Below are positions 15,767 to 18,511 of a stretch of 42,304 nucleotides of DNA, piece after piece. The DNA is from Candidatus Baltobacteraceae bacterium (GTDB lineage Bacteria; Vulcanimicrobiota; Vulcanimicrobiia; Vulcanimicrobiales; Vulcanimicrobiaceae): NCBI GenBank assembly GCA_036559195.1, contig DATBTN010000041.1:1-42304 (forward strand). Direction: 5' to 3'. Each line of letters opens with the position of its first letter. Position 1 is the stretch's first letter. A program made the translations under genes and the position numbers. The notes under the pieces are model-generated. The model worked only from the letters and a program-made list of their open reading frames with translations. It was not told the origin of the DNA and did no database searches.

Positions 15767-15853
15767 CGCGTGGCGATGTGAAACCTTTGCGCCATGAGAC
15801 GGTGTTTGGACGCGTGTATGAGCGCGCTTGCACCACTCCACAGGGAGTTGACC

Positions 15854-16483
15854 GTGCCACCACCGGCTTCGGCGAAGAAGGCGGCGACAAAAGCGCTTAC
15901 CGGCATTCCCAGCGTCGAACGCTTTGACGCCATCGTCGACGACTATCAGCGTCGGCTCTACGGATTCGCGCTGCGCATGACCGGCAACCGAGAGGACGCT
16001 GAAGAGATCGTCCAAGACGCTTTCGTGCGCGCCTACCGCGCGCTCGGGAAGATGTCGCTCGAACAGCGTTCCGAACTGCGTCTTCAGCCGTGGCTCTACA
16101 CGATCACGTTGAACGTTACGCGAAATCGCCTGCGAAGCAAGCGGCCTACCAACGTTGCGCTCGACGCGTTGGCCGATCCCGACGCGCTGCTGCGCGGCGC
16201 ATCGCACGACGGTCCGCTCCAGCCCGAAACCATCGTCGAGCAGAATGCCGACATGGTGCTGGTGGAGCGCGCCCTGCTGCAACTCCCGATGCATTTGCGC
16301 GCGGCGGCGACGTTGCGATTCATCGAAGGGCGCAGCCACCCGGAGATCGCCGAGATTCTCGATCAGCCGATCGGAACGGTCAAGTCGCACGTCCACCGCG
16401 CCGTGCGCATCCTGCGCCGCATCCTCGGCCCGCAGATCGGAAAAATCGTGCCTCAAGGAGCATCACTCCATGCGCTGTCGTGA
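15854..16483 (+). CDS. ECF-family RNA polymerase sigma factor
   Basis: This 209-residue protein (GTG start, RBS AGGGAG at 15842-15847) has sigma region 2 (FDAIVDDYQRRLYGFALRMT, then GNREDAEEIVQDAFVRAYRA) and region 4 (LLQLPMHLRAAATLRFIEG, then SHPEIAEILDQPIGTVKSHV with the helix-turn-helix). Region 1 and region 3 are absent, which defines group 4 (ECF). In-frame starts at 15794 and 15818 would add a non-conserved N-terminus and lack a ribosome-binding site. The 3' end overlaps the anti-sigma/MGMT gene by 14 nt, so the pair is translationally coupled, the usual sigma/anti-sigma arrangement. Confidence 0.9.
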   Translation: MPPPASAKKAATKALTGIPSVERFDAIVDDYQRRLYGFALRMTGNREDAEEIVQDAFVRAYRALGKMSLEQRSELRLQPWLYTITLNVTRNRLRSKRPTNVALDALADPDALLRGASHDGPLQPETIVEQNADMVLVERALLQLPMHLRAAATLRFIEGRSHPEIAEILDQPIGTVKSHVHRAVRILRRILGPQIGKIVPQGASLHALS

Positions 16484-17204
16484 CGTCGAAGCGCTGTGGG
16501 ACGACATTCGCGAGGGAATGCCCCCGCTTCGCGAAGCCGTCCTCAGCCATCTGAAGGCGTGCCCGCCGTGCCAGGAGTTGTACGAGCAGTACGAAGGCGT
16601 CGCCTATTGCTTGTCGTGCCTTCCGCAGCCGGAGCCGTCGTGCGATCTGGCCGCCAAGGTCGTCGAACACATCGCGCAGATCAAACACAAGTACCGTTCC
16701 ACACCCGTGACGCTCGCCGTCGTCGCAACGCCGATCGGGCGCCTCTACGTCGGATTTAAAGATGCGCGCATCACGTTCGTCGGAATCGATCGCGGCGAGC
16801 CGGCCGAGGCTATCCGCGAGCAAGTCGAGCGCCGCTTGCGCCGGAACGTTCAGACTGGTGAAGCGCCGTCGTGGCTAATCGGAATGCTCGACGAGTTCTT
16901 TACCACCTGGCACGTTGACGAAGGGCGCGTCGATATCAGCGACCTCACGCCCTTCGAGCAGGCCGCCCTCAAGGCGGCGGCCGCGATTCCGCCGGGTGAG
17001 GTACGGTCGTACTCGTGGGTCGCTCGCGAGATCGGCCGTCCGCGCGCCGCACGGGCCGTCGGTCAAGCGATGGCGCGTAATCCGTTGCCGTTGCTCTTCC
17101 CGTGCCACCGCGTCGTCGATTCGAACGGCGAACTTCACAACTACGGCTACGGCATCGAGATGAAGGCCCGTATCCTCAAGATGGAAGGCTACAAACCGAA
17201 CTAA
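16470..17204 (+). CDS. zinc anti-sigma domain fused to O6-alkylguanine-DNA methyltransferase
   Basis: This 244-residue protein has two parts. Residues 1-42 form a zinc-binding anti-sigma (ZAS) domain with C3-x23-H27-x3-C31-x2-C34. A linker with a further CxxC (C47, C50) and C58 follows. Residues about 79-244 are a complete MGMT/Ogt domain: RNase H-like N-terminal part (TPIGRLYVGF), then the helix-turn-helix IPPGEVRSYSWVAREIG, the Arg finger region RAARAVGQAMARNPLPLL and the active site PCHRVV with the alkyl-acceptor C212. The ATG has a good RBS, AAGGAG (16455-16460), inside the sigma gene. Suggested role: the ZAS part holds the sigma factor and alkylation of C212 or loss of zinc frees it. The domains are clear; the regulatory model is inference. 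Confidence 0.88.
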   Translation: MRCRDVEALWDDIREGMPPLREAVLSHLKACPPCQELYEQYEGVAYCLSCLPQPEPSCDLAAKVVEHIAQIKHKYRSTPVTLAVVATPIGRLYVGFKDARITFVGIDRGEPAEAIREQVERRLRRNVQTGEAPSWLIGMLDEFFTTWHVDEGRVDISDLTPFEQAALKAAAAIPPGEVRSYSWVAREIGRPRAARAVGQAMARNPLPLLFPCHRVVDSNGELHNYGYGIEMKARILKMEGYKPN

Positions 17205-17218
17205 CCGCGGCTAGCGCT

Positions 17219-18511
17219 TTAGAGACCGCCGAGCCCATGTGGGGTGCCTAGACCCGTATACGCGTCGAAGCCGGCGGGAGCGACGTCGTTGAACGCGCTG
17301 CGATGCGCATAGAGATACCAGGCGCTGTTGATGGCGCGCCCGTTACCCGCCAGTGCGTATGCGGCCGCGACCAACGGCGCGCCGACACTCGTACCACCGA
17401 CGACGATCCACCCGCCGGCTTGCCCGGAGTTCGTGAAATCATCGTAAACCGCAACGCCGGTCTGCGGGTCGGCAACCGCCGCGACATCGACCGTCGAACG
17501 CGCGTTATGACACGGACCCGGCGGCTGCCAATAGGGTCGCCATAAATAGTAGCTGCATCCGTGCCCGCCGCTCTGCCAGGCCGTTTCGGTCCACGAACCG
17601 CCCGCGCGCGTAAGGGTCGTGCCGCCAACCGACGTTACGTAACGCGATGCGGCCGGATACATCGGGACGCCGCGATCGCCCGAACTGACCGTGATTGGTA
17701 CGCCCGCGTGCCGGTAGTGCGACTCTTCCGCCGCTTCGCCCGACCATTCGAACGCGTCGTAGCTGTTGCTCACGACGTTCGCACCCATCGCGACGGCGCG
17801 ATCGACGCTCGCGCCGAGATCGTCGAGCGATGCCGAGTTCGCTTCCACGAGCAAAATGTGACAGTTCGGGCAGGTCGCCGAGAGCACGTCGAGATCCAGT
17901 GCGATCTCCGTGGCCCACTGCCGGTTCGGCGCCGGATATGGACCGAGAGAACCGGCTTGGTCGACGCGCCGGAAACAGCCGTTAGCCGTGCTACATTCCG
18001 GTAAGCCGAAGGCGGCGCGATAGATCGCTAAATCGGCTTCGGCCGCGGGATCGTCGTAGGCATCCACGATCGCCACGGTCTGGCCGGTGCCGGCCGCGGA
18101 CGTGGCGCCCGGCAGCTCATACGCGCCGGTCAGGTCGGCCGGTTGCAGTCCGTGAATCTCGAGCGGTGTGGCGTGCGGATCTGAGACGGGGGCGATGCCT
18201 GTATTTTGCAGCGCCAAACAGCGCGCGCTGCCGGCGGGGGCCTCGGGACAGAGCGAGACGATATTTCCCGGGAGTGTGGCCGGGGCATCGCCCGGCAGCG
18301 TGGCCGGGGCGTCGCCCGGCAAGGTCGCGGGCGCGTCGCCGGGCAGGCCTTGTGCGTCGCCCGGCAACGTTGCCGGCGCATCGGCGGGTGCCGCCGCGCT
18401 GGACGCGGCGCGCGAACCGGGCGGAACGGCGCGCATCCCCGCGCCCCCGCAACCGGCCAGAATCGTAATGAGGAACACCGCTAGAACTTTGCTACCGCAT
18501 CGAACGCTCAT
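17219..18511 (-). CDS. sedolisin-like (S53) serine-carboxyl peptidase lipoprotein
   Basis: This 430-residue protein begins with a lipoprotein signal (VFLITILAGC, acylated Cys 21). Residues 44-83 are five PGDAPATL-type repeats, then a catalytic domain. The S53 motifs are present: ExxxD in TEIALDLD, the oxyanion Asp in VSSGDRGVPMYPAAS, and Ser in GGTSVGAPL, plus the C-terminal calcium-site region DAYTGLGTPHG. S53 peptidases normally carry a propeptide of about 150-200 residues; here only some 40 residues lie between the repeats and the catalytic domain, so activation may differ. It lies 16 bp downstream of the LuxR/MalT-like regulator on the same strand, probably co-transcribed. Confidence 0.88.
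   Translation of the reverse strand: MSVRCGSKVLAVFLITILAGCGGAGMRAVPPGSRAASSAAAPADAPATLPGDAQGLPGDAPATLPGDAPATLPGDAPATLPGNIVSLCPEAPAGSARCLALQNTGIAPVSDPHATPLEIHGLQPADLTGAYELPGATSAAGTGQTVAIVDAYDDPAAEADLAIYRAAFGLPECSTANGCFRRVDQAGSLGPYPAPNRQWATEIALDLDVLSATCPNCHILLVEANSASLDDLGASVDRAVAMGANVVSNSYDAFEWSGEAAEESHYRHAGVPITVSSGDRGVPMYPAASRYVTSVGGTTLTRAGGSWTETAWQSGGHGCSYYLWRPYWQPPGPCHNARSTVDVAAVADPQTGVAVYDDFTNSGQAGGWIVVGGTSVGAPLVAAAYALAGNGRAINSAWYLYAHRSAFNDVAPAGFDAYTGLGTPHGLGGL
18263..18382 (-). repeat. in-frame tandem 24-bp repeats coding for PGDAPATL
   Basis: Five head-to-tail 8-residue units (DAPATLPG, with one variant DAQGLPG of seven residues) lie just after the lipidation site of the S53 protein. The units differ slightly in DNA and amount to a flexible Pro-rich tether. 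Copy number is likely to vary between strains by slippage. Confidence 0.85.

Follow-up and report, generated by a model that had tools for sequence, protein, structure and literature searches.

Suicide repair enzymes have to be replaced molecule for molecule, and an enzyme that reports its own consumption would, if it is truly at work, be a simple solution to this need. Whether such a device exists is the question raised by a gene pair in the window analysed here (the whole stretch of 42,304 nucleotides, contig C41 of a 2.48 Mb metagenome-assembled genome, MAG), in which the gene of an ECF sigma factor runs into a gene that joins a zinc anti-sigma (ZAS) domain to an O6-alkylguanine DNA alkyltransferase (MGMT) domain. 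The host belongs to a poorly known soil phylum, Eremiobacterota/Vulcanimicrobiota. A cultured member of this phylum, Vulcanimicrobium alpinus, is available (PMC9758169). The preliminary description of the window proposed that alkylation alters the grip of the fusion protein on the sigma factor, giving an Ada-like response built from unrelated parts.

The gene pair and its distribution

The features of the locus are as follows.

15779..15806, + strand: ECF-type promoter element TGAAACC-N15-GGTGTT (-35 at 15779-15785, -10 at 15801-15806), recognisable before most ortholog sigma genes
15818..16483, + strand: ECF sigma factor gene (Sigma70_r2 and Sigma70_r4_2), whose orthologs immediately precede the fusion throughout the order
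16470..17204, + strand: anti-sigma/MGMT fusion gene, 244 aa, from ATG 16470 to the stop at 17204, with full-length orthologs across the order
16470..16694, + strand: probable extent of the zinc anti-sigma domain, residues 1-75 (RsiW/RslA profile matches, four modelled helices, invariant ligands)
16707..17192, + strand: MGMT domain, residues 80-241 (PF01035, Foldseek match, invariant catalytic set)
17103-17105, + strand: codon of the catalytic Cys212, within the MGMT domain

The sigma protein matches the Pfam families Sigma70_r2 (58.3 bits) and Sigma70_r4_2 (47.4 bits), both above the cut-off. The stop of its gene (16483) and the start of the fusion gene (16470) overlap by 14 nt, as described beforehand and as seen in the open reading frames of the window, and mostly the same overlap is present in the orthologs. 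The start of the sigma gene had been placed at GTG 15854, which is preceded by a Shine-Dalgarno-like GGGAG; ATG 15818 is the more likely start, to judge from its position 11 nt behind the conserved promoter element, and this short distance suggests a leaderless message. A conserved MSALAPL-like N-terminal stretch of the sigma factor lies between the promoter and the GTG (15818-15853). Downstream of the pair, a gene on the - strand (17219-18511) carries ATLPGDAP repeats near the N-terminus of its product.

When 103 genomes of the order were searched, almost all of them yielded the fusion at full length, including every genome that is at least 90% complete; the genomes that gave no full-length match are of lower completeness. 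The fusion spans 39 genera of the order, the named relatives being labelled Candidatus Eremiobacterota or Vulcanimicrobiota, and within the phylum but outside the order the matches were limited to MGMT domains. In the fetched loci the fusion is immediately preceded by a sigma ortholog of 74-90% identity. A distance test run by script found this order in 72 of the 79 loci of the named collection. Five further matches sit no more than 65 nt from the beginning of the available sequence, too close to its edge for the upstream gene to be included, and the remaining two loci (L221 and L222) have a sigma gene but are of the sister type described below. Because the fusion is conserved throughout the order, over 39 genera, it is attributable neither to chance nor to misassembly, and a sequencing or assembly error at its junction is thereby ruled out.

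Domains of the fusion protein

The N-terminal part of the fusion protein holds the motif C3-H27-C31-C34, that is, the HxxxCxxC and upstream cysteine that serve as zinc ligands in ZAS factors, and all four residues are invariant among 59 non-redundant orthologs. Scored alone, the window sequence reaches 15.2 bits for zf-HC2 in Pfam, below the cut-off of 22.2 bits. A profile of 48 N-termini searched against 177,635 PDB sequences had two anti-sigma factors as its top matches, RsiW (E=3.3e-4, query positions 19-72) and RslA (E=0.018). AlphaFold2 predicts four helices in residues 1-80 of the isolated domain, and these are also present in the full-length model (mean pLDDT 87). The isolated N-terminal model had no Foldseek or VIA match, a modelling outcome that is taken to speak neither for nor against an anti-sigma fold. 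The motif, the invariant ligands and the RsiW/RslA profile thus agree with the zinc anti-sigma domain reported in the preliminary description, but its extent, given there as the first 42 residues, needs correction, since with four helices the domain probably continues to about residue 75.

The remainder of the protein had been described as an apparently intact MGMT domain, and this is borne out by a PF01035 match of 102.9 bits over residues 161-240 of the fusion, by the motif PCHRVV with C212, and by the conservation of the catalytic residues: C212, H213, R214, N204, Y181 and E239 are invariant and R195 is found in 58 of the 59 orthologs. With PF01035, PCHRV and the catalytic residue set, the domain has the features by which O6-alkylguanine DNA alkyltransferases (MGMT/Ogt) are recognized, and it is apparently catalytic. 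The full-length model matches MGMTs in Foldseek, best among them the OGT of M. tuberculosis (E=3e-12). Pfam searches of the window protein detected neither the Ada zinc domain PF02805 nor an AraC-type helix-turn-helix. Elsewhere in the same genome (contig C47, L132, 1742-2575), an AraC-type helix-turn-helix is fused to an MGMT domain, again lacking the Ada zinc domain; the product is a predicted Ada-like protein missing the usual sensor of Ada.

Relatives of the pair and a shared promoter element

Eight genomes of the order also carry a second pair, with an ECF sigma gene followed by a gene for an MGMT protein that bears a C-terminal Ada-type zinc domain (MGMT-AdaZn). These sister proteins of the order have no N-terminal zinc ligands, and PF02805 was confirmed on the one tested. 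The same arrangement is found in records from Streptomyces, Rubrobacter, Nonomuraea, Frankiales and Chloroflexi. In an Acidobacteria MAG (L220), the sigma gene accompanies a single protein in which zf-HC2, MGMT and Ada_Zn_binding each exceed their cut-off, and which shares 35% identity with the window protein across residues 1-240. On a plasmid of Streptomyces sp. NBC_00212 (L282, 2134-3480), a 448-aa chain combines sigma region 4, MGMT and Ada_Zn_binding; sigma region 2 gave no match in this chain at E 0.01. Sister sigmas from the order and from Chloroflexi are 39-46% identical to the window sigma factor (E down to 3e-40), closer than any ECF sigma factor taken from the same genome (at best 34%, E 5e-25). 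Another sigma paralog, noticed at G025:C85:16407-16940, shares 55% identity with that of the window. In the MGMT tree, the domains of the ZAS group and those of the MGMT-AdaZn group were not grouped together with support, and for a single sigma group holding both types the test gave neither support nor rejection (AU p=0.38, in a tree that includes the misframed L222 row); a sigma tree rebuilt without this row did not settle the branching either. On sequence grounds, the window pair is considered part of a broader sigma/MGMT set with varying zinc modules.

Genes of DNA repair adjoin several of the sister pairs: Oxygenase-NA (PF09859), which acts on damaged DNA according to its Pfam description, at L113, L116 and L118, and 3-methyladenine glycosylase (PF03352) at L114. 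No alkylation-repair genes were found next to the window pair, where the conserved synteny consists of housekeeping genes, and the promoter element was looked for upstream of the Oxygenase-NA gene of the same genome and not found.

Elements corresponding to that of the window ([TC]GAAACC-like -35, GT[TC] -10, at a fixed distance) can be recognised before the sigma gene in about 46 of the 57 ortholog loci. A matching element is present before 6 of 14 sister sigma genes, other phyla included, where 0.09 would be expected, and a relaxed form before 11 of 16 operons, one Oxygenase-NA gene among them; the two patterns, the relaxed one especially, were shaped by prior inspection of these loci, some of which are closely related to one another, and the computed p-value therefore exaggerates the enrichment. 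Three Streptomyces plasmid loci were fetched after these patterns had been set. At L281, AGCAACC-N14-GGTGTT was found by eye just upstream of the sigma gene, its first base being excluded by the scripted pattern; at L282, no promoter element was found; and L284 almost duplicates L133, so that it does not stand as an independent case. When the window's own and related genomes were scanned, the sigma gene was the one place where the element clearly recurred, a pattern that points to autoregulation and, for the window version, to a small regulon; the other matches occurred near the control rate, some of them resembling coding sequence, the genes behind them were annotated unsystematically, and weaker promoters would escape the pattern.

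A candidate alkylation switch and its alternatives

On balance, we lean towards the view that the pair forms an alkylation-responsive sigma/anti-sigma switch, in which a repair enzyme consumed by its own reaction would be the sensor. In the resting state, the N-terminal zinc domain would hold the ECF sigma factor, as suggested by the homology to RsiW and RslA and by the gene pairing. Once Cys212 accepts an alkyl group from DNA, the MGMT domain would be irreversibly spent, and the alkylated fusion may then change its shape or be degraded, as alkylated MGMTs are elsewhere, letting go of the sigma factor. To judge from the conservation of TGAAACC-N15-GGTGTT, the free sigma factor would transcribe its own operon from this element, and the newly made sigma and repair/anti-sigma proteins would reset the switch. 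As such a self-transcribed operon would renew both the sigma factor and the enzyme, what the window version would chiefly deliver is fresh enzyme to match the amount consumed.

This mechanism is favored by the order-wide placement of the fusion just after the sigma gene, the invariant zinc and catalytic residues, the anti-sigma profile matches, the four modelled N-terminal helices and the MGMT fold, as well as by the sister MGMT-AdaZn pairs, the L220 protein, the L282 chain, the repair neighbours of some sister pairs, the conserved promoter element of the sigma operon and the related elements before sister operons. Against it count the window pair's lack of repair neighbours, the Oxygenase-NA gene of the same genome without the element, the zf-HC2 score below the cut-off, the N-terminal model without a Foldseek match, the MGMT tree, which does not place the ZAS and MGMT-AdaZn groups together, and the absence from the window version of the Ada zinc domain of its sisters. 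Both the architecture and the suggestion, as originally put forward, that an Ada-like response acts on an ECF sigma factor are supported by the order-wide intact residues, by these relatives with their repair neighbours and by the shared promoter element; the phrase "built from unrelated parts" has to be amended, since relatives do use the Ada zinc domain. We would give even chances to the wider proposition that several phyla share a class of alkylation response where the inhibitor of an ECF sigma factor is itself a consumable repair enzyme, whose consumption drives its own replacement, with interchangeable zinc anti-sigma, MGMT and Ada zinc modules.

The zinc anti-sigma domain could instead be the sensor, a possible but rather unlikely explanation according to which oxidants or electrophiles hit the zinc thiolates or C47 and C50, as in RsrA and RshA, and free the sigma factor, the MGMT domain being a repair output on the same chain. 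Zinc anti-sigma domains usually answer thiol stress (PMC8999054), and of the 59 orthologs, 51 retain C47 and 49 retain C50. These frequencies also mildly favor the earlier suggestion that C47, C50 and C58 make up a second metal or redox site as far as the first two are concerned; C58, kept in 37 of 59, lends it no support. The absence of C47 and C50 from some orthologs argues against thiol sensing, as do the sister proteins, which keep MGMT beside the sigma factor without the zinc ligands and add the Ada zinc domain, and the repair genes adjoining the sister pairs, which point to alkylation.

It is more doubtful still that the MGMT domain senses damage binding or DNA occupancy, so that engagement of lesion DNA, and not transfer to C212, dislodges the sigma factor. 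The altered active-site loop would fit such a role: H223 and Y227, each found in 58 of the 59 orthologs, form an unusual loop that is absent from the sister proteins, and occupy what we take to be the positions of Gly156 and Gly160 of human MGMT. Alkyltransferase-like proteins, which have the MGMT fold without the cysteine, bind lesions without repairing them, and this also counts for occupancy sensing. However, neither C212 nor the residues around it vary within the order, whereas an MGMT-family paralog in the same genome (contig C57, L003, 1489-1959, - strand) has PAHR instead of PCHR and is, by this substitution, probably an alkyltransferase-like protein without transfer activity. Finally, it is very improbable that the N-terminal domain is some other zinc module, such as a DNA-binding aid, with a merely co-transcribed sigma gene: a window sequence below the zf-HC2 cut-off and an N-terminal model without a Foldseek match would agree with it, but the profile matched best to two anti-sigma factors that bind sigma, the Acidobacteria homolog exceeds the zf-HC2 cut-off and an ECF sigma gene is adjacent throughout.

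The proposed alkylation switch shares features with two known systems. As in ChrR of Rhodobacter sphaeroides (ZAS plus cupin), an N-terminal ZAS domain is followed by a second domain and the gene is paired with that of an ECF sigma factor; unlike in ChrR, the second domain is a DNA alkyltransferase and not a cupin, and the expected signal would be alkylation and not singlet oxygen. As with Ada of Escherichia coli, a methyltransferase protein is proposed to switch on transcription, that of its own gene included; unlike Ada, the window protein has no AraC-type helix-turn-helix and its output would be a released ECF sigma factor, while the zinc domain of Ada (PF02805) is carried by its relatives and absent from the window protein itself. 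If true, this would mean that an Ada-type adaptive response can be reached in a second way, with sigma release replacing the AraC-type activator. No characterized sigma/MGMT switch was found in the largely open-access literature searched, the defining ECF classification paper lying outside its scope; Ada and ChrR provide two halves of the principle, the combination of which appears to be undescribed in that literature.

As summarized in PMC8999054 (citing Casas-Pastor et al. 2021), ECF122 sigma factors adjoin 6-O-methylguanine DNA methyltransferases, with no anti-sigma factor listed and the mechanism given as unknown. Compared by gene neighbourhood alone, the window pair is like ECF122 in the conserved presence of an MGMT gene alongside that of an ECF sigma factor; unlike ECF122 as listed in that summary, its MGMT carries an anti-sigma domain. 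The switch would offer a candidate mechanism for ECF122-type sigma/MGMT pairs, and it is testable in the relatives of the pair in Rubrobacter and Streptomyces. On the Streptomyces plasmids L133, L281 and L284, a separate MGMT gene follows the sigma/MGMT-AdaZn pair, which lies near the methionine-cycle gene metF and in L281 also near metH; a separate MGMT gene likewise follows the sigma-MGMT-Ada gene of L282.
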